From contig NC_013923.1 of assembly GCF_000025625.1 (NCBI RefSeq), positions 1-64,000 of the forward strand: DNA of 64,000 bases, given 5' to 3'. Below, piece by piece: positions 30,363 to 48,823 of the stretch (its first letter is position 1; the number at the start of each line of letters is the position of its first letter). Below the pieces are notes generated by a model that was not told where the DNA came from, did no database searches, and worked only from the letters and a program-made list of their open reading frames with translations. The position numbers and the translations under genes were made by a program. Origin of the DNA: Natrialba magadii ATCC 43099 (lineage in GTDB: Archaea; Halobacteriota; Halobacteria; Halobacteriales; Natrialbaceae).

Positions 30363-32033
30363 ATGTTCAATGAAGACACGACATCCGACATCGATCGACG
30401 CCGATTCATCAAATCGACGGCTGCTATCGGCGCAGCAGGGCTCTTTGCCGGGTGCGTTGGAACCGATCCAGATGAAACCGGTGATGGGGGTGGGACGTTC
30501 CGGATCGCGACACCAGACGAGGTCGAGACGTTCGATCCGCGAATGAATCAGATGGTGTGGTACAGTACGGCTGCACACTACCTGTTCGACTCGCTTTTCA
30601 TGTTGGAACCGGACGGCAGTGGCGCGGTCCCACACCTTGCCGACGGCGAACTCGAGGAGGTCGACGAAACGACGTTCGTCGTCGACATCCGCGATGACGT
30701 CACCTTCCACAACGGTGACCAGCTGACCGCGGAGGACGTGGCGTACTCGCTCAACTGGGTCCGTGACCCGGACAACGACTCGCCCAACCTCTCGAACGTC
30801 GAGTTCATCGACGAAGCCGAGGCGACTGGTGAGTTCGAGGTCACACTCCACCTCGACTTCCAGTTCGCGCTGATGGAACGGGAGTTATCCTCGATGAACG
30901 CCGCGATCGTTCCAATGGATGCCGCCGAGGAGATGGGACAGGAGGAGTTCGCTCAGAACCCAATCGGCAGTGGGCCGTTCGAACTCGCGAACCACGATCC
31001 GTCGGCCAGCGTCGAACTCACGGCCAACGACGACTACTTCCTCGGCGAACCCACCCTCGGCGGGGTCGAGTACCGGATCATTCCAGAGGCAGAGGTTGGG
31101 TTCGTCGAACTGGCGGACGGTACTATTCACCAGTCGAGTGTGACGGAAGCCCTCGTCGACGAAGCTGAATCGAACGACAACGTCAACACGTACCAGATCA
31201 GTGATTTCAACTTCCAGGGGTTCATCATCAATTGTCTGGAAGGCCCGTTCGTGGACACCAGGGCTCGCGAAGCCGTTCAGTATCTCGTCGACTATGACGA
31301 ACTGCTGACTGGTGCGGTCGGTGACCTCGGTAGTCGAAGTGTTGCCCACATGCCCCCGGGTGTCGCCGAAGCATGGGATTTCCCAGCCGACGAGTGGCGA
31401 GAACAGTACTACCCGGAGCAAGACCACGACCGTGCCGTCGAACTGTTCGAGGAGGCTGGACTCGGCACCGACTTTGAAGTTGACATTGTGACCATGTCTG
31501 GCGAGTCGACGACGGGACGATCCACTGTCTTACAGCACGAGTTCCAGGAAGTCGGAATCGATGCATCGGTCAGAGAGGTCTCAGACGGCGAATGGCTGGA
31601 TGCACTCGATACCGGGGACTACGACATCAACACCTATGGCTGGGGCGGCGGCGACGACCCGGATGGCTACTACTACCGGATGTTCCGTGACCTCGCAAAC
31701 GACGACGGTGGCATGAGCGACGATGTCGTCGGCCATTCGTCGATCGGCTACCTCTACGAGGGCGCTCGAGATCGCGGCGACGACGAATTACTCGACGAGC
31801 TCGAACGACTGGACGAACTCGTTCGTGCAGCGCGAGAGACGACGGATCGAGACGAACGCTACGAGTACTACGTCGAGGCAGTCGACCTCCTCATGCCACT
31901 GCATCCGGTCATCGGCGTCTACTCCGCCGAGGGTATAACTGGCGTCCACACGGACGTACAGGACTACGAGCCGAGTCCGTTCGGCGAGCAGGAGGCGTTC
32001 AACCAGTGGCAAGAGGCGCGGATCGACGACTAG
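30363..32033 (+). CDS. dppA: peptide ABC transporter substrate-binding lipoprotein, copy 1
   Basis: The 556-residue protein is an SBP_bac_5 (DppA/OppA) binding protein. The N-terminus (DIDRRRFIKSTAAIGAAG, then LFAGCVG) is a Tat signal with a lipobox; the Cys after FAG would be lipid-anchored outside the membrane. The family signature is around VAYSLNWVRDPDNDSPN. A GTG nine bases upstream is an alternative start. The promoter is ATTATTTTC at about 30311-30319. A closely similar copy follows; both carry the same 150-base upstream region. With dppBCDF it captures short peptides. Confidence 0.93.
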   Translation: MFNEDTTSDIDRRRFIKSTAAIGAAGLFAGCVGTDPDETGDGGGTFRIATPDEVETFDPRMNQMVWYSTAAHYLFDSLFMLEPDGSGAVPHLADGELEEVDETTFVVDIRDDVTFHNGDQLTAEDVAYSLNWVRDPDNDSPNLSNVEFIDEAEATGEFEVTLHLDFQFALMERELSSMNAAIVPMDAAEEMGQEEFAQNPIGSGPFELANHDPSASVELTANDDYFLGEPTLGGVEYRIIPEAEVGFVELADGTIHQSSVTEALVDEAESNDNVNTYQISDFNFQGFIINCLEGPFVDTRAREAVQYLVDYDELLTGAVGDLGSRSVAHMPPGVAEAWDFPADEWREQYYPEQDHDRAVELFEEAGLGTDFEVDIVTMSGESTTGRSTVLQHEFQEVGIDASVREVSDGEWLDALDTGDYDINTYGWGGGDDPDGYYYRMFRDLANDDGGMSDDVVGHSSIGYLYEGARDRGDDELLDELERLDELVRAARETTDRDERYEYYVEAVDLLMPLHPVIGVYSAEGITGVHTDVQDYEPSPFGEQEAFNQWQEARIDD

Positions 32034-32130
32034 CTGGCAAGCTCCCGTCACTGATCGGAATGGTCTCGTATACAGTTGGGGCTCCGTAGAGACGCCCGTC
32101 GACACTTCGTTCACCACATCCCGGTCCTGT
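32034..32130 (+). pseudogene. remnant of the 5' end of dppB between the two dppA copies
   Basis: The sequence from TCGTATACAG at about 32066 to CGGTCCTGT at 32130 aligns with the region spanning the start of dppB (33957-34022). The ATG is now TTG, and the frame reads GLRRDARRHF-VHHIPVL against GLLRYALRRF-VQIIPVL in dppB. Directly after 32130 the sequence switches to that found before dppA copy 1. This is the scar of the tandem duplication. Confidence 0.85.
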
Positions 32131-32254
32131 GTCGACGAAATGACTCTCGCTCTTTGGGCCCCGACAGTCGGTGACGGCGGCCACCTATGATGCTAGGGAC
32201 GGATTATTTTCCCCTGATGTGACTTGTCTGGAGTACACTAGGGTAGTGTTCTCA

Positions 32255-33925
32255 ATGTCCAAGGAAGACACAACATCCGACATCGATCGACGCCGATTCA
32301 TCAAATCGACGGCTGCTATCGGCGCAGCGGGGCTCTTCGCGGGGTGCGTTGGCAGCGACCCAGACGAGCCAGGAGACGGGAGTGGGACGTTCCGGATCGC
32401 GACCTCTGACGAGGTCGAGACGTTCGATCCGCGAATGAATCAGATGGCGTGGTACAGCACGGCTGCACACTACCTGTTCGACTCACTCCTCATGATGGAG
32501 CCCGACGGCAGTGGCACCGTTCCACACCTCGCCGATGGCGAACTCGAGGAGGTCGACGAAACGACGTTCGTTGCAGATATCCGTGATGACGTCACCTTCC
32601 ACAACGGCGACCAACTAACCGCAGAGGACGTGGCGTACTCGCTCAACTGGGTCCGTGACCCGGACAACGACTCGCCCAACCTCTCGAACGTCGAGTTCCT
32701 CGACGAAGCCGAGGCAACCGGCGAGTTCGAAGTCACGCTTCATCTCGAGTACCAGTCTGCACTGATGGAGCGAACACTCGCCGGCATGAACGCCGCGATT
32801 GTGCCGATGGATGTCGCAGAGGAGATGGGTCAGGAGGAGTTCGGTCAGAACCCAATCGGCAGCGGACCGTTCGAACTCGCGAACCACGATCCGTCGGCCA
32901 GCGTCGAACTCACGGCCAACGAAGACTACTTCCTCGGTGAGCCAGCGCTAGATGGACTCGAGTACCGAGTCATTCCGGAGACGGAGGTCGGGTATGTCGA
33001 ACTTTCAACCGGTGACATTCACCAGTCCGGTGTGACGGAGGCGTTGCTCGACGAGGCACAAGAAGACGACAATATCGACGTCTATCAGCTCGACAACTTC
33101 GACTTCCAGGGGTTCCTCGTGAACTGTCTGGACGGGCCGTTCGAGGATGTGCGAGCGCGTGAGGCACTGCAGTATCTCGTCGATTACGACGAGCTGTTGG
33201 TCGGTGCGGTCGGCGAACTCGGCAGCCGGAACTGGGGACACATGCCACAGGGTGTCATCGACGCCTGGGACTTCCCTGCAGACGAGTGGGAGGAGCAGTA
33301 CTATCCCGAGCAGGACCACGACCGCGCAGTTGAACTCTTCGAGGAGGCCGGTCTTGGCACCGACTTTGACGTCGAGATTACCTCGCAGTCGGGCGAAGCG
33401 ACGACTGGACGGGCGACCGTGCTCCAGAACGAGTTCGAGGAAGTTGGAATCAACGCCACGGTAAGCGAGATTTCAGACGGTGAGTGGCTGGATTCGCTCG
33501 ATACCGGTGACTTCGACATCACCACGTACGGCTGGGGTGGCAACGACGACCCGGACGGCTACTACTACCACATGTTCCGTGACACCGCGAACGACGATGG
33601 TGGTATGAGCGACGATGTCGTCGGCCACTCCTCGATCGGCTACCTTTACGAGGGCGCTCGTGAGCGTGGCGACGAGGAGACGCTCGAGGATCTCGAGCGG
33701 CTCGACGAGATCGTTCGTGCAGCGCGGCAGACGACGGACCGAGACGAACGCTACGAGTACTACGTCGAAGCTGTCGACCTCCTCATGCCGCTCTATCCGG
33801 TTCTCGGTGTGTACTCCGCCGAGAGCGCGACTGGCGTCCACACGGACGTACAGGATTACGAGCCGAGCCCGTTCGGCGAGCAGGAAGCGTTCAACCAGTG
33901 GCAAGAGGCGCGGATCGACGACTAG
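32255..33925 (+). CDS. dppA: peptide ABC transporter substrate-binding lipoprotein, copy 2
   Basis: This 556-residue paralogue of the preceding gene has the same Tat/lipobox N-terminus (MSKEDTTSDIDRRRF) and the same C-terminus (SPFGEQEAFNQWQEARIDD), with most differences in the middle third. Divergence in residues 150-320 and 375-420 could change peptide preference. The frame is open to 32171, but the ATG at 32255 matches copy 1. It is 42 bases from dppB and shares its direction, so it is the copy most directly linked to the permease genes. Confidence 0.93.
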   Translation: MSKEDTTSDIDRRRFIKSTAAIGAAGLFAGCVGSDPDEPGDGSGTFRIATSDEVETFDPRMNQMAWYSTAAHYLFDSLLMMEPDGSGTVPHLADGELEEVDETTFVADIRDDVTFHNGDQLTAEDVAYSLNWVRDPDNDSPNLSNVEFLDEAEATGEFEVTLHLEYQSALMERTLAGMNAAIVPMDVAEEMGQEEFGQNPIGSGPFELANHDPSASVELTANEDYFLGEPALDGLEYRVIPETEVGYVELSTGDIHQSGVTEALLDEAQEDDNIDVYQLDNFDFQGFLVNCLDGPFEDVRAREALQYLVDYDELLVGAVGELGSRNWGHMPQGVIDAWDFPADEWEEQYYPEQDHDRAVELFEEAGLGTDFDVEITSQSGEATTGRATVLQNEFEEVGINATVSEISDGEWLDSLDTGDFDITTYGWGGNDDPDGYYYHMFRDTANDDGGMSDDVVGHSSIGYLYEGARERGDEETLEDLERLDEIVRAARQTTDRDERYEYYVEAVDLLMPLYPVLGVYSAESATGVHTDVQDYEPSPFGEQEAFNQWQEARIDD

Positions 33926-33967
33926 CTGGCCAGCCACATTCACTGATGGCAATCATTTCGTATACAG

Positions 33968-34918
33968 ATGGGACTGCTTAGATACGCCCTTCGACGCTTC
34001 GTTCAGATCATCCCGGTCCTGTTCGGTATCGTGACGCTGATGTTCGTCATGATGCACGCGCTGCCGGGTGATCCCGTTCGCCTCTATCTCGGTACCGAAC
34101 CGGGCCAGGAGCTGGCGGACGATCTGATCGCAAGCTACGGCTTCGACAGGCCGCTTCACGAACAGTACTTCGATTACCTCGTCCGCCTCGGGCAGGGAGA
34201 CCTCGGTCAGTCGTTCGTCTACAACCGCCCAGTGTCGGATCTCATCTGGGAGCGAATGGAGCCGACGCTCGTCGTGATGGGGCTTTCCTACCTCGTTGCG
34301 CTTCCGATGGCGATCGGTCTCGGCATCTACGGCGCGGCACGCCACAACGAAGCCGGTGACCACGCTTCCCGCTTCGCCGGACTCGCCGGCATCTCCACGC
34401 CAAACTTCTGGCTGGCACTGATGCTGATCTACGTGGTGACGTACCATCTCGAGTTGTTACCGGCGTCAGGGTATACCTCGCCGTTTATCGATCCGGTGGA
34501 GTCGCTGACGCTGCTCATCATGCCCGTCATCACCCTTGCGACAGCCCAGACGGCGCTGCTCATGCGGATGACGCGCTCGAGTATGATCGAGGAGCTTCGG
34601 GCGGACTACATCGAGACGGCACGTGCCTACGGGATTCCCGAGCGGAAGGTACTGATACGACACTCGTTCCGCAACGCGTTGTTACCCCTGGTGACGATCG
34701 TTGGGCTCCAGGTCTCGACGTTACTCGGCGGGAGCGTCATCGTCGAAGAGATTTTCGCTATCCCCGGACTGGGACGGCTGTTCTTCGACTCGCTCATCGA
34801 TCAGGACTACTCCGTCGCCGTCGGAGTGACGTTGTTCTTCTCGACGTTGTTCCTGATCGGCGTCGTGCTCACCGACATCGCGTACGCGTACATCGACCCA
34901 CGGATCAAGTATGATTGA
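33968..34918 (+). CDS. dppB: peptide ABC transporter permease DppB
   Basis: The 316-residue protein has six membrane segments and the DppB-type N-terminus MGLLRYALRRFVQIIPVLFG. The cytoplasmic EAA loop reads ADYIETARAYGIPERKVL and the conserved end is DIAYAYIDPRIKYD. It forms the translocation channel together with the next permease. Confidence 0.95.
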   Translation: MGLLRYALRRFVQIIPVLFGIVTLMFVMMHALPGDPVRLYLGTEPGQELADDLIASYGFDRPLHEQYFDYLVRLGQGDLGQSFVYNRPVSDLIWERMEPTLVVMGLSYLVALPMAIGLGIYGAARHNEAGDHASRFAGLAGISTPNFWLALMLIYVVTYHLELLPASGYTSPFIDPVESLTLLIMPVITLATAQTALLMRMTRSSMIEELRADYIETARAYGIPERKVLIRHSFRNALLPLVTIVGLQVSTLLGGSVIVEEIFAIPGLGRLFFDSLIDQDYSVAVGVTLFFSTLFLIGVVLTDIAYAYIDPRIKYD

Positions 34919-35047
34919 CGTAGCACAGAACCCACCGACGGCATCGTCGGTTGCGACACCAGACACAGCAGTAGCACCGGCACCGGCACTGACACCGATA
35001 CTGACACTGACGCCGATACCGACACTAACGCCGTGGAGGGATGACCA
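34919..35047 (+). repeat. intergenic simple repeat between dppB and dppC
   Basis: From about 34955 to 35035 the sequence is a chain of six-base words such as GACACC, GATACT, GACACT, GACGCC and GGCACC. The same repeat type codes for Asp-Thr runs in other genes of this window. Confidence 0.75.
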
Positions 35048-36127
35048 ATGAGCGGCGAAGAGAACCGTGTCGGCGACGCAGAACTCTCCACCAACGGCCG
35101 TGTGCTTGGAACGCTCGCGAAGCTCAGGCACAGCCCAACGTCGGTCGCTGGGCTCCTCATCGTCGGCCTCCTCGTTGCGATGGCGATCTTCAGCGCGATC
35201 GACAGCTTCCTGTTCAACCGCACGATCATCACGTGGCTCCACGCCGATCCGCACGCGATGGATCAGAGTATGCGCTACTCCGAACCGTCGCGAGAGCATC
35301 CGTTTGGAACCGACCGCTACGGTCGCGACGTGTTCGCGCGGATCATCTATGGCAGTCGAACGGCGCTGACGATCGGCATCCTCGCGGTCGGCATCAGCTT
35401 CGTCGGCGGCGTCATCATCGGCGCGATCTCGGCGTACTTCGGCGGCTACGTCGACGACGGCCTCATGCGAACCGTCGAGGTCCTGTACGCGATTCCGGGC
35501 CTCGTCCTCGCGATGATCTTCATGGCGATCTTCGGTCCAAGTATCTACAACCTCTTCATCGCCTACGGGATCGTCGGCATTCCGGCGTACGCCCGGGTGA
35601 TGCGCTCCGAAGTACTCTCCTTGCGAGACCGCCAGTACGTCGAGGCGGCCAAACTCGCAGGGCTGCCGCGACGAACGATCCTCTTCCGCGAGATCGTTCC
35701 CAACGGCCTCGCACCGGTCGTGGTGCAGGCGACGCTGTCGATGGGGACCGTCATCATCGGCGCAGCGGCGCTCTCGTTCCTCGGCTTCGGTGTGCAACCG
35801 CCGACGCCTGACTGGGGCCGAATGCTCGCGGACGGCCGGACGGCGCTGCTCGTCGCGTGGTGGGTCGCGCTGTTCCCCGGCATCATGATCTTCCTCACAG
35901 TTATGGGATTCAACATGCTCGGCGACGGATTGCGAGACGTAATGGATCCGAAAACGACCGTCGAAGACGTCGGCTACGAGGATTTCGATGTCGACTCGAT
36001 CCTCGAGGACGATGGCCACGGCGAGCTCTCACCGAACGAGGGTGACCGCCAGCAAGCGGCAACCGACGGTGGTCTCGAGCACCATGGCACGGAATCATCG
36101 ACGACGGAGCGAGGTGATCGTTCATGA
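35048..36127 (+). CDS. dppC: peptide ABC transporter permease DppC
   Basis: The 359-residue protein has an N-terminal helix, a loop with the DppC hallmark EHPFGTDRYGRDVFARIIYG, five further helices and the EAA loop RQYVEAAKLAGLPRRTILF. After the usual end (GDGLRDVMDPK) it carries an acidic hydrophilic tail of about 60 residues. Its stop overlaps the next gene by four bases (ATGA). Confidence 0.95.
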   Translation: MSGEENRVGDAELSTNGRVLGTLAKLRHSPTSVAGLLIVGLLVAMAIFSAIDSFLFNRTIITWLHADPHAMDQSMRYSEPSREHPFGTDRYGRDVFARIIYGSRTALTIGILAVGISFVGGVIIGAISAYFGGYVDDGLMRTVEVLYAIPGLVLAMIFMAIFGPSIYNLFIAYGIVGIPAYARVMRSEVLSLRDRQYVEAAKLAGLPRRTILFREIVPNGLAPVVVQATLSMGTVIIGAAALSFLGFGVQPPTPDWGRMLADGRTALLVAWWVALFPGIMIFLTVMGFNMLGDGLRDVMDPKTTVEDVGYEDFDVDSILEDDGHGELSPNEGDRQQAATDGGLEHHGTESSTTERGDRS

Positions 36128-37173
36128 GCCTCCTCGAGGTCGAAGACCTGCAGACGTACTTCTTCACGTCCGATGGCGTCGTGCGCGCGGTCGACGGTGT
36201 GAGCTTCGAGGTCGAAACCGGTGAATCGCTGGGACTCGTCGGCGAGAGTGGCGCTGGAAAGAGCGTCGCCGTCAAGAGTCTCATGGGGCTGATCCGAGAA
36301 CCTGGTCGGATCGTCAACGGGAGCATCAAGTACGACGGCCAGGAGCTGACCGACCTCAGCGAGCAGGAACTCAGACGAGACATTCGCGGCAACGAAATCT
36401 CGATCATCTTCCAGGACGCGATGTCCGCGCTCAACCCCGTCTTCACCGTCGGTGAGCAGATCGAGGAAGTCATCGTCGAGAACACAGACCGGTCGCCGAA
36501 AGAGGCACGCGAGCGAGCGATCGAACTCCTCGACGACGTCGGCATCCCGGATCCGGAACAGCGGATCGACGAGTATCCACACCAGTACTCCGGCGGGATG
36601 CAACAGCGAGCGATGATCGCGATGGCGCTCGCCTGTGACCCACAACTGATCATTGCCGACGAGCCAACGACAGCGCTCGACGTGACCATTCAGGCAGGAA
36701 TCCTCGAACTGTTCGAGGATATCAAAGAGAAGTACGAGACGAGCATGGTGTACGTCACGCACGACCTCGGCGTCGTCAGAGAGGTCTGTGACCGTGTAGC
36801 CGTCATGTATCTCGGCCGAGTGGTCGAATCCGCTCCGTACGAGGAACTGTACCGAAACCCGAAACACCCCTACACCCAGTCGCTGATCAACTCGGTCGTC
36901 ACGCCGGACGAGACGCTCGACGAACTCAATCCGATCGGCGGAACCATGCCGAGTGCAGTGTCGCCACCCTCCGGCTGCCGGTTCCGAACACGATGTTCGG
37001 TCGAGTTCGGCGAGTGCTCGCAGTTGACTCCGCCGCTGTACGATGTCAGCGACGACGAGACGCATACGGCCGCCTGCCTCCGATACGATGAGGGTGTCGA
37101 ACGCGAGGAGCCGGCGTTACACGAGTCGACAACCAGCGGGCCGGCCGTCGTGGAGGAATCGACAGATGATTGA
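36124..37173 (+). CDS. dppD: peptide ABC transporter ATPase DppD
   Basis: The 349-residue protein has Walker A GESGAGKSVAVKS (39-51), the signature YSGGMQQRAMIAMALA, Walker B LIIADEPTTALDVT and the oligopeptide ATPase C-terminal Cys segment (GCRFRTRCSVEFGECSQLTP ... AACL). It pairs with DppF to power import. The next gene starts 84 bases later, after a GAGACC-type simple repeat. Confidence 0.96.
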   Translation: MSLLEVEDLQTYFFTSDGVVRAVDGVSFEVETGESLGLVGESGAGKSVAVKSLMGLIREPGRIVNGSIKYDGQELTDLSEQELRRDIRGNEISIIFQDAMSALNPVFTVGEQIEEVIVENTDRSPKEARERAIELLDDVGIPDPEQRIDEYPHQYSGGMQQRAMIAMALACDPQLIIADEPTTALDVTIQAGILELFEDIKEKYETSMVYVTHDLGVVREVCDRVAVMYLGRVVESAPYEELYRNPKHPYTQSLINSVVTPDETLDELNPIGGTMPSAVSPPSGCRFRTRCSVEFGECSQLTPPLYDVSDDETHTAACLRYDEGVEREEPALHESTTSGPAVVEESTDD

Positions 37174-37257: not shown

Positions 37258-38943
37258 ATGAGTACGATCGATCGAACCGACGATGGGGGAACCAGTAGGA
37301 CGAACCGTGCCAACGACCGGGCTAGCGGGTCCAATCAGGAGCCGTTGCTCGAGGTCTCCGATCTTCAGAAACACTTCCCGGTGAACTCGGGGCTGTTCTC
37401 GTCGATCCGATTCGATCCGGACTCGGGAACGTTCCCGTTCCGCTACGACCAGTCGAGCGTGAAAGCCGTCGACGGCGTTGACTTCGAACTACGCCCCGGC
37501 GAGACGCTCGGCATCGTCGGCGAATCCGGCTGCGGGAAGTCGACGCTTGCACGCACCATTCTCGGCCTCGAGGAGCCAACTGCGGGCGACATCACCTTCG
37601 ACGGGCAACCGACGAACGAGATTCCCGAAGGCGAGTTCCGCAAGCGAACGCAGATGGTGTTCCAGGATCCCCAGTCGAGTCTGAACCCGCGCCGAAAGGT
37701 CGGCCACATTATCGAAGACCCACTCGAGGGAACCGACTGGCCACGGTCCGAGCCGTCGGTCCGTGCCGACGCCGAGGTTCGAACGGAGCGCCTCGGTGAC
37801 TATACGGTCGACGCCACGGTCGACGGCGATGCAGACCTCGTCCTCGATCCGGTCGACGGCGTCGCAACGGTCTTGCTGACGGTCCGCCCCGACGGCGGTC
37901 CCGACGACCAAGCGATCCAAACGGCCGACGACGTCGCCGTCGAACTCCCCTGGGGGTTCGACGCTACCGTCACCGTCGACGACACCCAGCGAACGATCGA
38001 CGTCGACGTTTCCGTCTCCGCCTCCAAAGCCGACCTTCGGCGCGAGCGCGCACTCGAGTTACTCGAGCAGGTCGGCCTCAAACGCGAGTACTACGACCGC
38101 CATCCCCACGAGTTCTCCGGGGGGCAACGTCAGCGGATCAACCTCGCGCGGGCGCTGTCGATCAATCCGGATCTCGTCGTGGCGGACGAGCCGGTTAGCG
38201 GACTCGACGTGAGTGTGCAGGCCCAGATCCTCAACCTGATGGACGACTTGCAGGAGGAGTACGGGCTAACGTACCTCCTGATTTCCCACGACCTGAGCGT
38301 CGTTCGGTACGTTGCCGACCGCGTGGCCGTAATGTATCTGGGAGAGTTCGTCGAAATGGCACCGACGGAGGAGCTGTTCACCGAGCAGTACCATCCCTAC
38401 GCCAGGGCGCTGTTGAGCGCCGTGCCGAACCCTGACCCCGATCAGCCGGGGATCGAATCGGTGATTCAGGGGAACGTGCCGAGTGCTTCCGATCCGCCGC
38501 GGGGCTGTCGGTTCCACACGCGTTGTCCGTCGTTCATCCTGCCGGACGGCTTCAGCACCGAGGGGTACGAGGCGTACGACGAACTCCTCGAGGCTGTCCG
38601 TGAGAAGGAACTCGAGGGGAGCGATCCGGACGCGATTGTCGAGACCTATCTCGGGGATATCGACGCGAGTGCGTCTGCTGACACCGCTACCGACGCCGCC
38701 GGCGATGGCGGTGCGATTCCACCCGCCGCAAGGTCGGACGCGCGCCAGGCCGTCGAACGCGCACTCGCGGGCGACTGGACGGCTGCCAGAGAGCGTCTCG
38801 AGGCTCACGAATCGGTCTGTCAGTCTGTAACGCCGGCGCTCGACCCTGCCGCCAGAACCGGTAGTGAAAGCGCTGGCGGAACCGAACGGTTGACGGCGTG
38901 TCATCTCGAAGTAACTGACCAGGGAGGCATCCGTGAGCCGTAA
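37258..38943 (+). CDS. dppF: peptide ABC transporter ATPase DppF with two large insertions
   Basis: At 561 residues this is about 200 longer than usual. Walker A is GESGCGKSTLART (about 88-100), the Q-loop is QMVFQDPQSSLNPR, the signature FSGGQRQRINLARALS and Walker B LVVADEPVSGLDVS. A block of about 100 residues (about 160-262; for example DYTVDATVDGDADLVLDP) is inserted between the Q-loop and the signature, in the helical subdomain; its alternating pattern suggests beta strands. A second insert of about 80 residues splits the C-terminal Cys segment (GCRFHTRCP ... HESVCQSVTP). The end overlaps the next gene by 11 bases. Confidence 0.93.
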   Translation: MSTIDRTDDGGTSRTNRANDRASGSNQEPLLEVSDLQKHFPVNSGLFSSIRFDPDSGTFPFRYDQSSVKAVDGVDFELRPGETLGIVGESGCGKSTLARTILGLEEPTAGDITFDGQPTNEIPEGEFRKRTQMVFQDPQSSLNPRRKVGHIIEDPLEGTDWPRSEPSVRADAEVRTERLGDYTVDATVDGDADLVLDPVDGVATVLLTVRPDGGPDDQAIQTADDVAVELPWGFDATVTVDDTQRTIDVDVSVSASKADLRRERALELLEQVGLKREYYDRHPHEFSGGQRQRINLARALSINPDLVVADEPVSGLDVSVQAQILNLMDDLQEEYGLTYLLISHDLSVVRYVADRVAVMYLGEFVEMAPTEELFTEQYHPYARALLSAVPNPDPDQPGIESVIQGNVPSASDPPRGCRFHTRCPSFILPDGFSTEGYEAYDELLEAVREKELEGSDPDAIVETYLGDIDASASADTATDAAGDGGAIPPAARSDARQAVERALAGDWTAARERLEAHESVCQSVTPALDPAARTGSESAGGTERLTACHLEVTDQGGIREP

Positions 38944-41482: not shown

Positions 41483-42193
41483 TTACGACGAGCGTAACTG
41501 CGCCGTCTCGCTCCGTTCGCGATCCCTAACCTCTTCGAGAATGCGCTCGAGAACGACCGACTCGCCCTTTCGAAGATGTTCGAGTGCAGTCGGTCCGGAG
41601 ACACCGTGCTTTTCGGCGAGATCCTTCGCGGCGATGTCTCGCGGCCAGCCGTAGTAACCCTCCTCGAGTGCAGAGAGGAGATACTCCGTCTGCCGGGCGG
41701 AGAGGTCGTCTCTAATCTCGTCGATGACGGTGTGGTTGGCCGAGGCGTTCGGCTCGTAGTCAGTCACGCGAAGGATATCGACATCTGCGTCCGTCTCGAG
41801 CGTCGAAATTGCGGAGCTGATCGCACCGCCGTCGACGAGCAGGGTCCAGTACTCTGCGTTGTCCTGGATGCGGATATCGCCGATCGGTGTCAACGACGAG
41901 TTGATGATCGCATCGTAAATCGACGACTCCATCTTGTATCTGGTGTGGATCCGAAGCGATTGGATCCCGCCGTCGAGGCGGTCGGTCGAGCGGACGGCAG
42001 GGGCGGCTGCTGCCTCGTCCGCGATTGCGTCGAGATCGAGGTCGCCGTCGCCACTGACGACGACTGTTGCCAGAATGTCGGTTCCATCGGAGCAGATGTC
42101 GGTCACGACGAGCGTCGTATCCGGATACGTTCGCGTCAACGACAGCATCCAGCACCCTTCATGCCACAGTTGGAGGTCGAGTCGCTTTTTCAT
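41483..42193 (-). CDS. bacterio-opsin activator-like HTH_10 regulator
   Basis: The 236-residue protein starts MKKRLDLQLWHEGCWMLSL. Its N-terminal two thirds resemble the ligand-sensing part of haloarchaeal Bat-type regulators, and the C-terminus carries the HTH_10 domain (LSARQTEYLLSALEEGYYGW, then AAKDLAEKHGVSGPTALEHLRK). It is divergent from the decarboxylase-epimerase operon, with the start codons 77-157 bases apart depending on the decarboxylase start, so it is the likely regulator of that operon. Confidence 0.9.
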   Translation of the reverse strand: MKKRLDLQLWHEGCWMLSLTRTYPDTTLVVTDICSDGTDILATVVVSGDGDLDLDAIADEAAAAPAVRSTDRLDGGIQSLRIHTRYKMESSIYDAIINSSLTPIGDIRIQDNAEYWTLLVDGGAISSAISTLETDADVDILRVTDYEPNASANHTVIDEIRDDLSARQTEYLLSALEEGYYGWPRDIAAKDLAEKHGVSGPTALEHLRKGESVVLERILEEVRDRERSETAQLRSS

Positions 42194-42244
42194 GGACGAT
42201 CAGATACTCACGTACCCTGATATTGGATGTCATTCACAGTCATC

Positions 42245-42251: not shown

Positions 42252-42350
42252 GAACTGTGCATCTGACGGATGCTCTTCCCCGTCGAACAGTCGGGTTCCC
42301 TAGCATGCGAGGGAGGGTGCTTTCACGAACTGATGCGTCACGTAGTACCA

Positions 42351-43643
42351 ATGGATCTCACCCACCGGCGAGAACGCTTGCTCGAACACGAAGCGGCGCT
42401 GTGTGCACCGCACGACAGCCCGGTATACGTCTTCTACGAGGACGACATCCGGGACAACTACCGAACGCTTCGAAGCGCGCTTGACGAGCACTACCCCGAC
42501 TCGACCATCCACTTTGCCGTCAAGGCTAACTACAATCCCGCTATCCTCTCGATTCTCCGCGACGAGGGCTGTCACGCCGAAGTGTACGCCCGCGGTGAAC
42601 TCGCGGCGGCACAGACGGCCGGCTACGATGCCGACGACCTGCTGTTGACCGGGATGAACCGCCGTCCCGAGGACATCGAGCGCGCCCTCGAAACCGGCGT
42701 TGGACACTTCCTCGTCGATAACGCAACCGAACTCGAACGGCTCGTGGCGGCCGCGCGAAAAACCGACGTTCGCCCGCGCGTGCTAATTCGCTGTAACCCG
42801 TCGATGGAGGTCCCCACCCACCCCGAGGTCGCGACGGCGACACTCGAGACGAAGTTCGGGCTGGACATCGATTCGGGTCGCGCGATGGCAGTCACCGAAA
42901 AGGCGGTGGCCGCCGAGGAAATCGACCTTGCGGGCATTCAACTCCACATCGGCAGCCAAATACAAAGTGCCGAGCCATACGGCGTCGCAGCGCGAGATAT
43001 GTGCGCGTTCGCCGTCGATATTCGCGACGAACTCGGCGTCGAGATCGATGTGCTTGATCTTGGCGGCGGGCTCCCGGTACCGTACGACGACGATGTGCCT
43101 GCTCCCGAAACGATCATCGAGACAATCGCGACGAACGTCAAAGACTCGCTCTCTGCGACAGACATGTCGCTCCCAACGCTCTTTCTCGAACCGGGCCGGC
43201 GACTCGTCGGCAACGCCGGGACGCTGCTCGCCCGTGTCGGCGTCGTCAAGGAGACGCCGTACGCGACGTTCGCCGTGCTCGACGCCGGGACGAACACAGT
43301 GTCGTCGTACTGGCCGTACCCGATTTACGCACTTTCGGAGGCAGAGCCAACCGAATCCTATCACCTCGCCGGACCACTTTGCTACTCGGGTGACGTGCTT
43401 GCCGAGGACGTCTCGCTGCCGCCACTCGAGCGCGGCGATACCATCGCGATCGACCGCATCGGCGCGTATTCGCTCGGCAGCGCATCGCACACGAACGCTC
43501 AGCCGAAGCCGCCGATCGTTCTCCTGCGCTCGAACGGTGATGTCGAGACGATCCGTCAGCCAGAATCGGTCGAGGAAATCATCGGCAACGCACAGCAGCC
43601 CGAGGACCTGGCGCTCGACGACGTAACGACGGAGGCTGACTGA
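42351..43643 (+). CDS. diaminopimelate decarboxylase-like PLP enzyme
   Basis: From the ATG at 42351 it has 430 residues; ATG codons at 42333 and 42270 are alternatives. It is a fold III PLP decarboxylase: FAVKANYNPAI (PLP-binding K58), GIQLHIGSQI, LDLGGGLPVPY, LEPGRRLVGNAG, the active-site Cys in GPLCYSGDVLAED and the end SLGSASHTNAQPKP. The GP-x-C-x-SGD pattern is that of diaminopimelate decarboxylase (meso-DAP to L-lysine), though ornithine/arginine-type decarboxylases are related. Here, upstream of the NlpC/P60 enzyme that could release DAP, turning DAP into lysine is a coherent role. The stop overlaps the next start (TGATG). Confidence 0.88.
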   Translation: MDLTHRRERLLEHEAALCAPHDSPVYVFYEDDIRDNYRTLRSALDEHYPDSTIHFAVKANYNPAILSILRDEGCHAEVYARGELAAAQTAGYDADDLLLTGMNRRPEDIERALETGVGHFLVDNATELERLVAAARKTDVRPRVLIRCNPSMEVPTHPEVATATLETKFGLDIDSGRAMAVTEKAVAAEEIDLAGIQLHIGSQIQSAEPYGVAARDMCAFAVDIRDELGVEIDVLDLGGGLPVPYDDDVPAPETIIETIATNVKDSLSATDMSLPTLFLEPGRRLVGNAGTLLARVGVVKETPYATFAVLDAGTNTVSSYWPYPIYALSEAEPTESYHLAGPLCYSGDVLAEDVSLPPLERGDTIAIDRIGAYSLGSASHTNAQPKPPIVLLRSNGDVETIRQPESVEEIIGNAQQPEDLALDDVTTEAD

Positions 43644-44800
43644 TGAGCACGGACGCCGCACTCGAGACGGCTGCGTCGCTCGCTGTCCAGCAGGCAACGA
43701 CGCAGTACGCTCCTGACGAGCGGGCTGCCGTCGCCGCTGTCGATGCAGTCGTCTCCGACGATACCGTCGTTCTCGAAGGGGCGGTAAGCACCGAGCGGGT
43801 TCGAACCGGTGTTCGCAATGCTGTGCAGGAGGCCGTTTCCGCGCAGTCTGACGATGGCTCGGACGCCGCCGCTAACGCCACCACAGACGCCACCACAGAC
43901 GCCACCACAGTTCGCGACGAGCTGACCGTACTCGAGTCTCTGGCTGTGCCACGCACCACTCGTCGTCGCGTGGTCTCCGTCAGGGGCGACCCTGAGGAGG
44001 ACGCTGAGCAGGTCACGAAGGCACTGTACGGAGAAGCCCTGACGGCCTACGATGGCCGCGACGGCTGGTGTCGCGTTCGGACCGCCGACGGCTACCTCGG
44101 CTGGGTCGACGAGGAGGCGCTCTGCGAACTCGACGTCACCGACGAGTGGGAACCAGATGCTGCTGTCGCAACTGCGCCGGCTGACGCGTTCGAGGACGAA
44201 GACCGTGATCCTGACAGCACCGTCGGTCTCGACACCGTTCCCGCGGGTGTCGAGTGCCGAATCGAGTCGGACGGAACCGACGCCGAGTCCAGCGGGACCG
44301 GCTCCGAGACGGCCACCCAAGCCGAACTCGTCGTTTCCTTCCGAACCGGTGCCACAGCGCGACTCCACGCCGACGCCATCCGCGAGACGGCCGGACTTGG
44401 AACCGGCGACGAGGTCGTCTCCATCGCGAGACAGTTCCTCGAGACGCCCTACGAGTGGGGCGGGATGACCAGCGACGGGATCGACTGCTCTGGCCTCGTT
44501 CGCATCGCCTATGCGGCTATTGGCGTGCTCGTTCCGCGCGACGCAGACCAGCAGTCCACGCTCGGAAAGGCCGTCGACCGCGACGAACTCGAACCCGGGG
44601 ATCTGCTCTTTTTCCCCGGCCACGTCGCGATCAGCCTCGGCGGCGACGACTACATCCACGCCTACGGCAGCGACGATGCGGTGACGATCAACAGCCTCGA
44701 CCCCGACGACGAGCAGTATGTCGAATCGCTCGACGAGTCGATGACGGCCACGAAGCGACTCCTGCCGACCGACGCTGACTCGATGGAGGTTGACCGATGA
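43643..44800 (+). CDS. NlpC/P60 cysteine peptidase (YkfC-like), cytoplasmic
   Basis: The 385-residue protein ends in an NlpC/P60 domain (about 253-380) with the catalytic Cys 282 in GIDCSGLVR, His 327 in FPGHVAISLG and third polar residue His 339 in YIHAYG. Before it are two SH3-like segments (VTKALYGEALTAYDGRDGWC, LGWVDEEAL), the architecture of Bacillus YkfC, which cuts the gamma-D-Glu-diaminopimelate bond once the N-terminal L-Ala is free. A Thr/Asp/Ala repeat (NATTDATTDATT) is near residue 80. There is no signal peptide, so it acts inside the cell. It overlaps both neighbours by 1-4 bases. Confidence 0.93.
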   Translation: MSTDAALETAASLAVQQATTQYAPDERAAVAAVDAVVSDDTVVLEGAVSTERVRTGVRNAVQEAVSAQSDDGSDAAANATTDATTDATTVRDELTVLESLAVPRTTRRRVVSVRGDPEEDAEQVTKALYGEALTAYDGRDGWCRVRTADGYLGWVDEEALCELDVTDEWEPDAAVATAPADAFEDEDRDPDSTVGLDTVPAGVECRIESDGTDAESSGTGSETATQAELVVSFRTGATARLHADAIRETAGLGTGDEVVSIARQFLETPYEWGGMTSDGIDCSGLVRIAYAAIGVLVPRDADQQSTLGKAVDRDELEPGDLLFFPGHVAISLGGDDYIHAYGSDDAVTINSLDPDDEQYVESLDESMTATKRLLPTDADSMEVDR

Positions 44801-45879
44801 TCGTCGACCGCGTCGACGTCTATCGAGTCGAGTTCCCCCTGATCGACTCGTTCGAAATCTCGCTCGGGACGAAACACCGCGCGACGAACGTGCTCGTCGA
44901 ACTCGAGACCGACTCCGGCGTCGTCGGCTGGGGCGAAGGCGCACCGCTCGCGCCCATCACGGGCGAGACGATCGACAGCGCCATCGCTGGGGCGACCGCT
45001 GGCGCGGCGGTACTCGAGGGACGCGACCTTCGCGACCGGCGCGAACTCGCACTGGAACTCGACGCGGCGCTTCCCGGGGCGGTCTCCTCGCGCTTTGCAC
45101 TCGAGACGGCGCTGTACGACGCCTATTGTCGCGAGCGAGGGATTGCGCTGGCGGAGTGCTTCGGCGGGAAGCCGGAGCCGGTTCGGACCGATATCACGGT
45201 CGCGATTGTCGATCCGGAAACCGCGGCGGCAGAGACAGAGGCTGCCAAAGAGCAGGGATTCGACGAGTTCAAGGTCAAAGTCGGCAGCGATGTGGAGTCT
45301 GACCTAGAGCGCGTTGCGGCCGTCCGACGTGCGGCCCCCGATGCGGGGCTCAAGGTCGACGCGAATCAGGGCTGGACACCGAAGGAGGCGATTCGGTTTG
45401 CCGACCGGGCTGCCGACCGCGGGCTCGATGTCGGCCTGCTCGAACAGCCCGTTCACCGAGACGACGTTACTGGCCTCAAGCGCGTTACTGAGGCCGTTCG
45501 AACGCCGGTCGCGGCCGACGAGACGGTCTTCACACCTGCGGATGCACACCGGGTCGTTTCGGAGGGTGCCGCCGACGTGATCAACATCAAGGCGGGCAAG
45601 TCGGGGCTGACCGACGGTGCTGCCATCGCCGAAATCGCACGCGGCGCGAATCTCGACGTGATGGTCGGCTGTATGCTAGAGAGCGCGCTCGGCCTCCACG
45701 CCAGCGCCCACTTGGTCGCCGGACTGGGTGACTTCTCGTACGTCGACCTCGACGGCAACCACTCGTTCGAGCGCGGGCTCGCGGACCTCCCATCCGGACC
45801 GACGCACGAACTCACCGGACCCGGCCACGGAATCGTTCCCGAGCCGGATGCTGTGCCCGAGTCGCCCGTCGAGCGATGA
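44797..45879 (+). CDS. dipeptide epimerase (L-Ala-D/L-Glu epimerase type), enolase superfamily
   Basis: The 360-residue protein shows all residues of the muconate-lactonizing subgroup: KVK at 159-161, metal ligands Asp 188 (KVDANQGW), Glu 216 (LLEQPVH) and Asp 241 (ADETVF), and the second base in NIKAGKSG (263-270). The C-terminal DLDG-type loop (YVDLDGNHSF) fits dipeptide epimerases, which use an Asp-x-Asp to hold the dipeptide amine. It would convert L-Ala-D-Glu left by the NlpC/P60 enzyme to L-Ala-L-Glu, which ordinary peptidases can cut. Its ends overlap both neighbours by four bases. Confidence 0.93.
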   Translation: MIVDRVDVYRVEFPLIDSFEISLGTKHRATNVLVELETDSGVVGWGEGAPLAPITGETIDSAIAGATAGAAVLEGRDLRDRRELALELDAALPGAVSSRFALETALYDAYCRERGIALAECFGGKPEPVRTDITVAIVDPETAAAETEAAKEQGFDEFKVKVGSDVESDLERVAAVRRAAPDAGLKVDANQGWTPKEAIRFADRAADRGLDVGLLEQPVHRDDVTGLKRVTEAVRTPVAADETVFTPADAHRVVSEGAADVINIKAGKSGLTDGAAIAEIARGANLDVMVGCMLESALGLHASAHLVAGLGDFSYVDLDGNHSFERGLADLPSGPTHELTGPGHGIVPEPDAVPESPVER

Positions 45880-47000
45880 CGTTTGCCAGCGGTGGCACTG
45901 GGCCTGCTTCCTCGGACACCGCTATCGCCACCGAGCGAGTCCAGTCGCTACTCGAGGAGGGCCTGGAGCGCGAGTACTACACGGCGGCAGTTGCCGTCGC
46001 CGGTGGCGTCGACGAACTACCGGTTACGGTCGCCGTCGGACAGCCGTCGCCAACCGACGAGCGCACGGTTGGCCTCGAGACGCCGTTCGACTGCGCCTCG
46101 CTCACGAAGCCAATCGTCACCACGACGGTACTGTTTCGACTCCTCGAACGGGGGGAGGTGACCCTGACCGACGAACTCGGCGACCACCTGCCTGCACTCG
46201 AGCGCCACCGGCGCGGCGAAATTCCGCTGTGGCGGCTCCTGACGCACACGTCCGGCCTACAGCCGTACGCCTTCTCGCCCGAGTGGGACAGTGTCGACGA
46301 CGTACTGGCGGGGCTCGCCGACCAGAACCTGTTCGATCGCCGACTCGGTGACGGCTTCGTCTACAGCTGTCTGAACTACGTCTACCTCGCGGCCGCTCTT
46401 CGCCAGGTGGCCGGAACCGACCTCGCGACGCTCGCCGACGAGCACGTGTTCGGCCCCGCCGGCATGCGTGATTCGTCCCTCGGTCCGTACGAGACAGGCG
46501 ATTCGGAGTCTGAACTCGAGTCAACCGTCGTTGCGACGTACGATCACGAGTACGGCCGCGGCGAGTGTCGCAACGAGATCCACGACCCGATTGGGAACGT
46601 GATGGGCGGCGAGAGCGGCAACGCCGGGCTGTTTGCGACGGCTCATGACGTTGCACAGTTCGCGCAGACACTGCTCAGCGATTCAGATTCTGATTCGGCG
46701 TCGGCAGCGCCGCCTCGGCTCGTCTCGCCTGCGACCATCGACTGTCTCCCGGTTCGGCGGAGTGGAACGGAGACCGCATCGCAGGGCTACGGCTGGCGCG
46801 TCGGGACGGACCACATTCCGGCGCCCCAGTGGTCCGAGCGAACGATCGGTCACACCGGCTTTACGGGCACCTCGCTGTGGGTCGACATCGACCGTGGACG
46901 TTTCGCCTGCCTCCTCACGAACGCCGTCTACGAGCAGGTGCAACTGTACCGGTTCCGACAGCGCTACCACGCGATCGTTGCTGCGTCGCTGTTTGGCTGA
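45876..47000 (+). CDS. class C beta-lactamase-fold serine hydrolase
   Basis: The 374-residue protein has SLTK (S75, K78) in DCASLTKPIV, the second motif as YSC (163-165, usually YSN or YSD) in FVYSCLNYVYLAAALRQVAG and HTG in IGHTGFTGTSLWVD. It lacks a signal peptide. The family includes D-amino-acid peptidases, esterases and LD-carboxypeptidase-like proteins, and related genes sit in bacterial murein-recycling loci. As the last member of an overlapping four-gene unit it probably acts on another murein-peptide bond, but the bond cannot be read from sequence. Confidence 0.9.
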   Translation: MTFASGGTGPASSDTAIATERVQSLLEEGLEREYYTAAVAVAGGVDELPVTVAVGQPSPTDERTVGLETPFDCASLTKPIVTTTVLFRLLERGEVTLTDELGDHLPALERHRRGEIPLWRLLTHTSGLQPYAFSPEWDSVDDVLAGLADQNLFDRRLGDGFVYSCLNYVYLAAALRQVAGTDLATLADEHVFGPAGMRDSSLGPYETGDSESELESTVVATYDHEYGRGECRNEIHDPIGNVMGGESGNAGLFATAHDVAQFAQTLLSDSDSDSASAAPPRLVSPATIDCLPVRRSGTETASQGYGWRVGTDHIPAPQWSERTIGHTGFTGTSLWVDIDRGRFACLLTNAVYEQVQLYRFRQRYHAIVAASLFG

Positions 47001-47090
47001 CACCGTCCGACCTCCTTGTCGCTGTGTTCAACATAGTCGTCGTTTTCGTTGTCTCCCCCATTCGCTTGACCCCACGCACCGACCGTCCTA

Positions 47091-47170
47091 TAGTAACAAC
47101 TGCACCTAGTTACACACTGCTCGCCGAGTCATCTGGCGATCAGGCGTGCAGTGACTTGCAGTGGCTACTA
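47091..47170 (-). mobile_element. 80-base TA-inserted hairpin element (MITE), copy 3
   Basis: This copy is inverted relative to copies 1 and 2, flanked by TA at 47089-47090 and 47171-47172. It lies 54 bases before the D-aminoacylase start, immediately upstream of its core promoter region, and separates that gene from the epimerase operon. Confidence 0.9.
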
Positions 47171-47224
47171 TAGCCTAGCTACCAAGGGTTGGGTTTTTAG
47201 CTCTCGGACGGGAATCCGTCGACC

Positions 47225-48823
47225 ATGACAGATTTTGACACAGTCCTCCGGAACGGCCGACTCGTCGATGGTACTGGTTCTCCGTGGTTCGACGGCGATA
47301 TCGCCATTCGGGACGGCCGAATCGCTGCAATTGGCACTGTTTCTGGCACCGGGGCTACCGAACTCGACGCAGAGGGACACGTCGTTGCACCAGGCTTTAT
47401 CGACATCCACACGCACTCCGATTACACGCTCCCCGCGAACCGAGCGGCCCACAGCAAGGTCCGTCAGGGCGTCACTCTCGAGATTGTCGGCAACTGCGGG
47501 ACGAGCGCCGCGCCGCGACACGGACTCGCTGCGGAGGACGTCGACGAAGGATTTGCCTACCGCGGCGTCGGCGACGTCGTCGACACGAGCCAGTGGGAAA
47601 CGATGGGCGAGTACCTCAACCACCTCGACGACCCCGAGGCCGGCGGCGTCTCGCTCAACGTCGGCTCGCTCGTCGGCCACGAAAACGTCCGAATTCCCGT
47701 GCTCGGCTACGAGGACCGCGAGCCGACCGCCGACGAACTCGAGGAGATGAAAGCGCTCCTCGACGAGGCGCTCTCGGACGGCGCTGTCGGTCTCTCGACG
47801 GGCCTCATCTACACCCCCGGCGCGTTCGCCGAGACCGAGGAACTCGTCGAACTGGCCTCTGTCGTCGCCGAGCACGACAAACTGTACGCCACCCACATGC
47901 GAAGCGAGGGCGACGATATTTTCGCGGCACTCGAGGAGGCCATCGAGATCGGCGACCGTGCTGGCGTTCCGGTACAGGTTTCCCACCACAAGGCCGTCGG
48001 CCGGGACAACTGGGGCAAGGTCCGATACACCCTCCGCCGGATGGAACGCGCCCGCGAGGACGGCGTCGAAATCCAGTGCGAGCAGTACCCCTACACCGCC
48101 TCTTCGACCAGTCTGGTCGCCCGGCTGCCGACCTGGGCTCGCGAGGGCGGGACCGAGGCGACGCTCGAACGGTTGACCGACACAGAGACGCAGGCCGAGA
48201 TTCGGGAGGCACTCGAGTCGAACACCGATTCCTGGGACGATATTCTCATCACGAACGTCCGGACACCCGAACTCGAACACGTCCAGGGGAAGACCGTCGG
48301 CGAACTCGCGGAGCGGGCGGACGAATCTCGGACGCCTGCCCAGATTGTCGTCGACCTGCTGATCGAGGACCGCTGTCGGCCCCGACACATCCACTTCAGC
48401 ATGAGCGAGCAGGATGTCGAGGAGGTTATGGCCCACGACCTCACGATGATCGGCAGCGACGGCAACTCGCTGCGCCCGGCGGGGCCGCTCGGCGACGGCG
48501 TTCCGCACCCGCGAAGTTACGGCACGTTCCCGCGGGTGCTCGGCCACTACGTTCGCGAGGAGTCAGTTATCTCACTCGAGACGGCCGTCTACAAGATGAC
48601 CGGCCAGCCCGCAGCCAGACTCGGACTCGAGGACCGCGGCGTGCTGAAACGAGGTATGTGGGCGGATATTACGGTGTTCGACCCCGATACGGTGAGCCAG
48701 GGTGGGTCGTTCGTCGATCCGGCCGTCTATCCAGACGGCATTCCGCACGTGCTCGTCAACGGTGAGTTCGTCGTGCGGGATGGCGAGCATACGGATGCGC
48801 GTCCCGGTGTCGCGCTTCGGTGA
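47225..48823 (+). CDS. N-acyl-D-amino-acid deacylase (D-aminoacylase family)
   Basis: The 532-residue amidohydrolase has HTHSDYT near residue 60 in APGFIDIHTHSDYTLP, the zinc-bridging Cys in EIVGNCGTS, a middle THMRSEGD and QVSHHKAVGRDNWGK, then the catalytic Asp in MIGSDGNSLRP. The closing GMWADITVFDPDTV is typical. Family members release free D-amino acids from N-acyl-D-amino acids, for example N-acyl-D-Glu or N-acyl-D-Ala. In this locus it could deal with acylated D-residues from murein. The likely promoter lies between the hairpin element and the start (GGGTTTTTAGC at about 47190). Confidence 0.93.
   Translation: MTDFDTVLRNGRLVDGTGSPWFDGDIAIRDGRIAAIGTVSGTGATELDAEGHVVAPGFIDIHTHSDYTLPANRAAHSKVRQGVTLEIVGNCGTSAAPRHGLAAEDVDEGFAYRGVGDVVDTSQWETMGEYLNHLDDPEAGGVSLNVGSLVGHENVRIPVLGYEDREPTADELEEMKALLDEALSDGAVGLSTGLIYTPGAFAETEELVELASVVAEHDKLYATHMRSEGDDIFAALEEAIEIGDRAGVPVQVSHHKAVGRDNWGKVRYTLRRMERAREDGVEIQCEQYPYTASSTSLVARLPTWAREGGTEATLERLTDTETQAEIREALESNTDSWDDILITNVRTPELEHVQGKTVGELAERADESRTPAQIVVDLLIEDRCRPRHIHFSMSEQDVEEVMAHDLTMIGSDGNSLRPAGPLGDGVPHPRSYGTFPRVLGHYVREESVISLETAVYKMTGQPAARLGLEDRGVLKRGMWADITVFDPDTVSQGGSFVDPAVYPDGIPHVLVNGEFVVRDGEHTDARPGVALR

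Follow-up and report, generated by a model that had tools for sequence, protein, structure and literature searches.

A putative module for murein-peptide catabolism on the small chromosome of Natrialba magadii

We analysed a stretch of 64,000 nucleotides, here called the window, which comprises bases 1-64000 of contig C2, the small chromosome of the haloarchaeon Natrialba magadii. Within 18 kb, it encodes two DppA proteins, DppBCDF, an S13 peptidase, an HTH_10 regulator, a decarboxylase that we call LysA2, an NlpC/P60 protein, an epimerase, an S12 hydrolase and a D-aminoacylase-family protein. Judged by homology and genomic context only, this locus likely forms a catabolic module for peptides derived from bacterial murein, in an archaeon that has no murein itself. 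The sizes of contigs C1 (3,751,858 bp), C2 (378,348 bp) and C3 (254,950 bp) agree with those published for strain ATCC 43099, in which they correspond to the chromosome, to pNMAG01 (the small chromosome) and to pNMAG02, respectively (PMC3403918). The main text of that genome paper contains no mention of peptidoglycan, murein, diaminopimelate or D-alanyl (PMC3403918).

Gene content of the locus

The genes, in window coordinates, are:

29081..30226, minus strand: M42 family peptidase, glutamyl aminopeptidase-like, left of dppA1 (PF05343, E 1.6e-69)
30363..32033, plus strand: dppA1, peptide-binding lipoprotein with twin-arginine translocation (Tat) motif and lipobox (PF00496, SBP_bac_5, E 7.5e-65; scanned open reading frame (ORF) 30354-32033)
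32171..33925, plus strand: dppA2, tandem paralogue of dppA1 (PF00496, E 6e-68)
33968..34918, plus strand: dppB, permease (PF00528, BPD_transp_1; PF19300)
35048..36127, plus strand: dppC, permease (PF00528)
36124..37173, plus strand: dppD, ATPase (PF00005, ABC_tran; PF08352, oligo_HPY)
37258..38943, plus strand: dppF, ATPase with an insertion within the ABC domain (PF00005, 137 positions, spread over residues 72-313; oligo_HPY)
38933..40306, plus strand: S13 (PBP4-type) D-Ala-D-Ala peptidase, predicted to be cytosolic (PF02113, E 3.7e-91; TIGR00666 above cut-off)
41483..42193, minus strand: HTH_10 regulator, divergent from LysA2 (PF04967, E 1.4e-14)
42351..43643, plus strand, start tentative: LysA2, fold-III pyridoxal phosphate (PLP) decarboxylase of the diaminopimelate (DAP) decarboxylase type with an altered distal site (TIGR01048, 323 bits; Orn_Arg_deC_N / Orn_DAP_Arg_deC)
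43643..44800, plus strand: NlpC/P60 protein assigned to the YkfC / dipeptidyl-peptidase VI subfamily; carries SH3 domains and additional residues at its N-terminus (PF00877, NLPC_P60, E 6.1e-23; SH3_16)
44797..45879, plus strand: L-Ala-D/L-Glu-type dipeptide epimerase (MR_MLE; 1jpm/1tkk, E 4e-68; NF041118, 265 bits)
45876..47000, plus strand: S12 / beta-lactamase-fold hydrolase (PF00144, E 7.6e-43; AmpH/PBP4b-like scores under cut-off)
47225..48823, plus strand: D-aminoacylase-type amidohydrolase (PF07969, Amidohydro_3, E 3.3e-38)

All genes named in the original prediction, which had been made from the sequence alone, were recovered with Pfam and NCBIfam, at exact coordinates or within a few codons. 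The overlaps of 1-11 bp that it described are found at five junctions (dppC/dppD, 4 bp; dppF/S13, 11 bp; LysA2/NlpC, 1 bp; NlpC/epimerase, 4 bp; epimerase/S12, 4 bp), and LysA2, NlpC, epimerase and S12 form a single overlapping gene string from which the HTH_10 gene diverges. The layout needs to be amended in that the HTH_10 gene lies on the minus strand, the M42 gene might be a further member of the set beyond the span first proposed, and LysA2 perhaps starts at 42351 instead of 42270. Conservation of LysA2 begins at 42351, and a Met occupies that column in 10 of 11 aligned rows, whose starts were picked by a script (G081 was omitted from this alignment).

As had been predicted, the enzymes appear to lack export signals: no signal peptide was seen at the N-termini of the S13, LysA2, NlpC, epimerase, S12 and deacylase-like proteins, which were read by eye and not with a predictor. 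PBP4 usually bears an export signal, and the S13 protein of the module has no visible one; its translation carries SNTK, SDN and KTG, which we take to be the SxxK, SxN and KTG motifs of the S13 family. According to their translations, DppA1 and DppA2 both start with RRRF..LFAGC, a Tat/lipobox sequence. The S12 and Amidohydro_3 proteins gave weak matches to many diverse curated models, and not all genomes of this family, and none seen outside it, have a D-aminoacylase-type homologue close to the module (present in G044, G162 and G115; in G046 it lies about 6 kb from dppA). DppF contains an acidic insertion of about 100 residues within its ABC domain that is common to the Natrialba loci, and homologues from outside Natrialba align as two pieces around it.

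Recurrence in other haloarchaea

Six protein classes (NlpC, S13, LysA2, epimerase, M55 and Amidase_2) were each searched in 292 haloarchaeal genomes, taken as one common set. For LysA2 and the epimerase, at most five and seven candidates per genome were scored, respectively, so that copies may be missed, and the epimerase threshold (E 1e-60) was fixed before the search. NlpC/P60 proteins were found in 23 of the 292 genomes, epimerases (E up to 1e-60) in 46, M55 proteins in 22 and Amidase_2 proteins in 36. The LysA2 clade is present in 12 genomes from four families, with all members at 527 bits or more and the next match at 186, and S13 proteins are likewise found in 12 genomes, 11 of which are shared with LysA2. 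NlpC and the epimerase are encoded in all 12 LysA2 genomes, S13 in 11, Amidase_2 in nine and a strong M55 match in eight, where 'strong' refers to 14 of the 22 M55 genomes and to a cut (E 1e-70) chosen after the scores had been seen. The decarboxylase, NlpC/P60, epimerase and S13 genes, whose co-occurrence had been proposed as a check of the original prediction, thus recur together in several haloarchaeal families and are not joined only in N. magadii. As the set recurs in other genera and families, we rejected a chance neighbourhood.

A second view is given by 15 named haloarchaeal LysA2 loci, from Natrialba, Natronorubrum, Haladaptatus, Halorussus, Haloprofundus, Halolamina, Salinarchaeum and others; six of these come from genomes of the class sample (G162, G282, G146, G115, G081 and G279), so that the two counts overlap. 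Near LysA2, we found dpp genes in 13 loci, S13 in 14, NlpC in 10, the epimerase in five, M55 in five and M42 in three. NlpC is encoded somewhere in the genome for 14 of the 15, the exception being a metagenome-assembled genome (MAG) of 1.9 Mb. In G279, M42, M55, LysA2, HTH10, S13, dppABCDF, DUF1611 and the epimerase follow each other within about 15 kb. M42 adjoins dppA or LysA2 in G162, G282, G046, G115 and G146, is one gene off in G279, and adjoins LysA2 in locus L110 (G146 and G279 also appear in the locus set, as L107 and L114). Six of seven wider regions, including two already counted among the three loci, have M42 directly next to dppA or LysA2 or separated from them by one gene, and because of this adjacency the M42 gene of the window may belong to the module.

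Key residues and relatives of the enzymes

Among solved structures, the relatives of the NlpC/P60 protein are led, both by profile and by fold, by B. cereus YkfC and dipeptidyl-peptidase VI proteins (3pvq, 3npf, 3h41); the fold search used a predicted model with a predicted local distance difference test (pLDDT) score of 86 and matched 3pvq/3h41. In a single-sequence search, 8er5, an isolated NlpC/P60 domain, ranked second. The YkfC subfamily is marked by Asp256 and Tyr118, requires a free N-terminal L-Ala and is described as occurring predominantly in four bacterial phyla (PMC2954226). With the numbering anchored on 3h41, where Cys238 is residue 216 of the chain and Tyr118 hence residue 96, the equivalents of Tyr118 and Asp256 in the window protein are Y151 and D300. 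Both are invariant in all 22 haloarchaeal proteins aligned (a broken copy from G234 was omitted), as are the equivalents of Asp237, Cys238, Arg255, His291 and His303. The window protein has SH3_16 and NLPC_P60 domains, the catalytic residues C282, H327 and H339, and an R299-D300 pair. By sequence, the haloarchaeal NlpC proteins therefore carry the published signature of the YkfC subfamily, in agreement with the YkfC-like label first given to the window protein. Its N-terminal region of about 100 residues (43643-43945) has no Pfam match and is predicted to adopt an alpha-beta-beta-alpha-beta arrangement.

NlpC, an AEE-like enolase (AEE, L-Ala-D/L-Glu epimerase) and a canonical LysA are also encoded next to each other in a Thermoplasmata MAG (L118:6995-10227). 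Read by eye, this NlpC protein has Asn and Phe at the positions of the YkfC-type Asp and Tyr, so that the MAG is evidence that the three families go together, but we rejected it as support for a shared YkfC-type specificity.

The closest solved relative of the epimerase is the B. subtilis L-Ala-D/L-Glu epimerase (1jpm/1tkk, E 4e-68). The best of 17 matching NCBIfam models is NF041118 (AEE) with 264.9 bits, compared to 183 for DgcA, which favours the L-Ala-D/L-Glu-type label of the original prediction, although the score misses the equivalog cut-off of 500 bits. The protein aligns with 1jpm, and in a separate alignment of haloarchaeal rows K159, K161, D188 and E216 are invariant and DLDG is present in 11 of 13 rows; presumably, these represent the KxK, acidic metal ligand and C-terminal DxD features of AEE. 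Enolase-superfamily enzymes also act in the DgcN-DgcA D-glutamate pathway, said to have been described by Yu et al. in 2023 in marine Proteobacteria and halophilic archaea, in which such an enzyme returns D-Glu to L-Glu. N. magadii has a separate pair of a DUF1611 (DgcN) gene and an enolase gene on C1, whose enolase scores as DgcA (260 bits versus 182 for AEE); it contains the sole DUF1611 match of this organism, and there is none among the scanned neighbours of the module. The epimerase of the module, in contrast, fits AEE better than DgcA, and no DUF1611 gene adjoins it in the six genomes of family f1; we rejected its assignment as DgcA of the known D-Glu pathway.

The DxD motif does not discriminate between the two kinds of epimerase, as DUF1611-linked paralogues keep it too. 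A DUF1611 gene is present in all 46 epimerase genomes, many of which have a second copy right beside an epimerase paralogue, and the one DUF1611-linked paralogue that was scored also fits AEE better than DgcA (259 versus 162 bits). Neither the AEE score nor the DxD motif thus settles the specificity. In a tree of 30 haloarchaeal rows, from which one duplicate was left out, the module epimerases of the six f1 genomes group together with support of 99/99, and a branch of lower support (79/88) has on its one side all nine rows in which no DUF1611 gene is adjacent. G044, G046 and G081 hold both epimerase kinds. DUF1611 adjoins an AEE-like epimerase in 20 of 20 regions (L155-L174) that were picked because a DUF1611 near an epimerase had been placed there, and another DUF1611 gene is found elsewhere.

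LysA2 scores above the cut-off of the curated lysA model TIGR01048 (323 versus 297.9 bits), and its predicted model, a monomer of moderate quality (pLDDT 77), resembles the fold of DAP decarboxylase (1tuf/1twi). In the T. maritima enzyme, the distal amine of DAP is held by Glu315 and its distal carboxylate by Arg249 and Arg285; with most substitutions of Glu315, the activity on DAP fell and the substrate range broadened (PMC8277567). We compared 21 LysA2 rows, which are distinct over their last 380 residues and were taken from 25, with 21 canonical archaeal LysA rows; L069, L104 and L106, which duplicate loci of other rows, had already been removed. Residues are numbered from the 42270 ORF and were equated by alignment, motifs and spacing (249-285 and 310-346 both span 36 residues, 315-343 and 372-400 both 28). 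In all 21 LysA2 proteins, the Glu315 position is occupied by Tyr (Y372) and the Arg285 position by Ser (S346), while K85, the PLP lysine, C371, the Arg249 equivalent R310 and Tyr400 are retained. The same two distal changes occur in all 28 rows of a wider LysA2 set, whereas canonical archaeal LysA proteins have the distal Arg in 21 of 21 rows and the Glu in 20.

Since LysA2 keeps only one of the three residues that contact the distal end of free DAP, we named the protein LysA2 and not LysA; it probably does not recognise free DAP the way LysA does. The decarboxylation of free meso-DAP to lysine, as put forward in the original prediction, agrees with the lysA model but is doubtful as written. 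It is nevertheless quite possible, if somewhat less than probable, that the pathway uses exactly this chemistry and that LysA2 is an ordinary DAP decarboxylase, redundant with the biosynthetic LysA. The model score, the retention of Lys85, Arg310, Cys371 and Tyr400, and the juxtaposition of NlpC, an epimerase-like protein and canonical LysA in the Thermoplasmata MAG speak for it, as does the reduced DAP activity kept by most T. maritima Glu315 mutants (PMC8277567); the changes of Glu to Tyr and of the second carboxylate Arg to Ser in every LysA2 protein, and the chromosomal LysA that is already present, speak against it. This chromosomal LysA (C1 2821952-2823124) has Thr at the Glu position, as the sole exception among the 21 canonical rows, and a T. 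maritima E315T mutant prefers 2-aminopimelate (PMC8277567).

LysA2 may instead act on peptide-bound DAP, an attractive candidate with its distal amine acylated, or on another substrate. A substrate in which the amine is acylated and the carboxylate next to it is free would fit LysA2, since the amine-gripping Glu is lost and one carboxylate Arg is kept. One might speculate, although we regard this as rather unlikely, that LysA2 represents a new kind of decarboxylase, for which the D-end of DAP must be free but the amine of the L-end remains linked to gamma-D-Glu, as in a murein peptide after import. This would yield L-Ala-gamma-D-Glu-L-Lys before the NlpC cut, in an archaeal pathway distinct from the bacterial ones. 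As LysA2 passes the lysA model despite its predicted different substrate, automatic annotation may be misleading for this enzyme group.

Proposed pathway, alternatives and known systems

Based on the observed gene content, recurrence, family membership and key residues, we propose the following pathway, in which substrates, step order, compartments and physiological use are predictions. An Amidase_2 protein and a second S13 protein, both with Tat-type starts, could release peptides outside the cell, and DppA and DppBCDF would import wall peptides into the cytosol. The cytosolic S13 and S12 proteins, together with an M55 D-aminopeptidase from another replicon, would handle the D-Ala ends. The YkfC-type NlpC/P60 protein would cut after gamma-D-Glu in peptides with a free N-terminal L-Ala, the epimerase would convert L-Ala-D-Glu to L-Ala-L-Glu, and the M42 protein, a candidate hydrolase for the final dipeptide, or another peptidase may hydrolyse this product. 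LysA2 would remove the D-side carboxyl group of DAP to give lysine, possibly on peptide-bound DAP ahead of the NlpC cut.

With regard to the supply of peptides, N. magadii encodes a Tat-type N-acetylmuramoyl-L-alanine amidase-family protein (Amidase_2, PF01510, E 1.6e-20) and a second S13 protein with a Tat motif, read by eye; S13 copies with an RR-type start, also judged by eye, occur in eight of the 12 S13 genomes. Strong PG_binding_1 matches were found in G122, G146 and G175. G122, which has a LysA2 module, encodes Tat-type M23 + PG_binding_1 and Amidase_2 + PG_binding_1 proteins (L129:673-1668, L179:2241-3326), with an S13, a LysA2 and an NlpC gene at distances of about 23 to 37 kb from the latter.

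Several observations weigh against a dedicated murein-peptide module. Eleven of the 23 NlpC genomes lack LysA2, and in G012, G023, G126, G175 and G234 no other window gene was found within about 10 kb of NlpC; partial neighbourhoods are seen in others without LysA2, with M55 in G208, G256 and G276, the epimerase and dpp in G056, and dpp in G026. The M55 gene of N. magadii lies on another replicon than the module, and no S66 LD-carboxypeptidase was among the Pfam matches of the scanned locus proteins, the genome not having been searched for S66. All six members of the clade of the window epimerase belong to f1, and the epimerase near the module in G146, G273 and G279 belongs to the DUF1611-linked paralogue group. 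The distal site of LysA2 departs from that expected for free DAP. The Fisher p values for co-occurrence with LysA2 (NlpC, 2e-15; epimerase, 6e-11; S13, 5e-18) ignore shared ancestry. Amidase_2 is also present in 24 of 269 genomes without NlpC, three of them of the same genus and without the module, and it is hence supportive but not diagnostic. Amidase_3 was found in none of 26 genomes searched, and PG_binding_1 in five of 36, N. magadii not being among them.

It seems improbable to us that the locus instead serves the general scavenging of peptides of mixed origin that contain D-amino acids or gamma linkages, with a broad transporter and broad hydrolases and murein as one source among others. 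Transporters with family 5 solute-binding proteins are often broad, the epimerase falls below its curated cut-off, and the S12 and Amidohydro_3 proteins resemble diverse models only weakly. Members of the epimerase family also differ in their dipeptide specificity (PMC3605383). However, S13 genes are nearly confined to module genomes, the pocket residues for free L-Ala and gamma-D-Glu are kept in 22 of 22 NlpC proteins, and a DAP-decarboxylase relative is a core member of the set.

Some haloarchaea make poly-gamma-glutamate, and NlpC/P60 enzymes can act on gamma-D-glutamyl bonds. Turnover of the organism's own gamma-glutamyl polymer, a poly-gamma-glutamate-type capsule or glutaminylglycan, is nevertheless very improbable, as the pocket with Asp256 and Tyr118 recognises an L-Ala with a free N-terminus (PMC2954226), a polyglutamate offers no evident task for LysA2, S13 and M55, and the epimerase is nearest to the L-Ala-D/L-Glu group. 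We favour the catabolism of bacterial murein peptides, for which the original prediction is partly supported, by the co-occurrence, the NlpC residues and the epimerase score, but not in its free-DAP step.

The module shares the reaction logic of the YkfB/YkfC pathway (PMC2954226). It resembles the B. subtilis dppABCDE-ykfABCD locus in its Dpp-type importer, its AEE-type epimerase (YkfB) and its NlpC/P60 protein of the subfamily of the endopeptidase YkfC, in which no signal peptide is visible, and an M55 D-aminopeptidase is present in several module genomes. The M55 model also matches in B. subtilis, where we take DppA to be the M55 D-aminopeptidase, and B. subtilis YkfA is an S66 LD-carboxypeptidase. 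The module is not the same system: it is found in an archaeal host without murein, has S13, LysA2 with its altered distal site as a core member, an HTH_10 regulator, the extra NlpC N-terminal region and M42 and S12 neighbours, and shows no S66 among the scanned locus proteins. E. coli, which recycles its own wall, also uses MppA, Opp and LdcA for murein peptides, and we know of no decarboxylase in this set. With E. coli recycling (MpaA, YcjG), the module shares uptake, the cut between gamma-D-Glu and DAP and epimerisation to L-Ala-L-Glu; MpaA is unrelated to YkfC (PMC2954226).

Halobacterial peptidoglycan hydrolases that kill bacteria were reported in 2025, in a study that asks whether bacteria are a nutritional resource and leaves the question of rivals or food open; its main text contains neither 'NlpC' nor 'recycl' (PMC12352652). 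Those enzymes are secreted weapons, whereas the N. magadii module is predicted to be cytosolic and catabolic, and it offers a concrete genetic handle on this question. Among the matches listed for searches of open-licence PMC papers on the use of murein by archaea, none described the breakdown of murein peptides by an archaeon. If our reading is correct, some haloarchaea would feed on bacterial walls by a dedicated route that recurs among them, bacterial remains would be a possible food, and LysA2 would represent an enzyme group with a substrate different from that of ordinary LysA.

A few further features of the window were noted. The plus-strand ORF 41576-42220 was rejected as a gene, as it has no family match and is antisense to HTH_10. 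A frame at about 40863-41333 (plus strand), between S13 and HTH_10, would encode a small lipoprotein-like product (RRKLIKL...GLAGC) with an apparent start that lacks ATG, GTG or TTG, and is either a relic or uses a non-standard start. A megablast search against plasmids returned 15 records with short matches confined to dppD and dppF. An S9 peptidase gene (49363-51228, minus strand) flanks the module, and distant S9 genes lie near module genes in G072, G146, G273 and G122, perhaps by chance. Positions 52001-58000 have a G+C content of 0.50-0.52 and are possibly an acquired stretch; across the module, measured in steps of 2 kb, the G+C content is 0.55-0.67.

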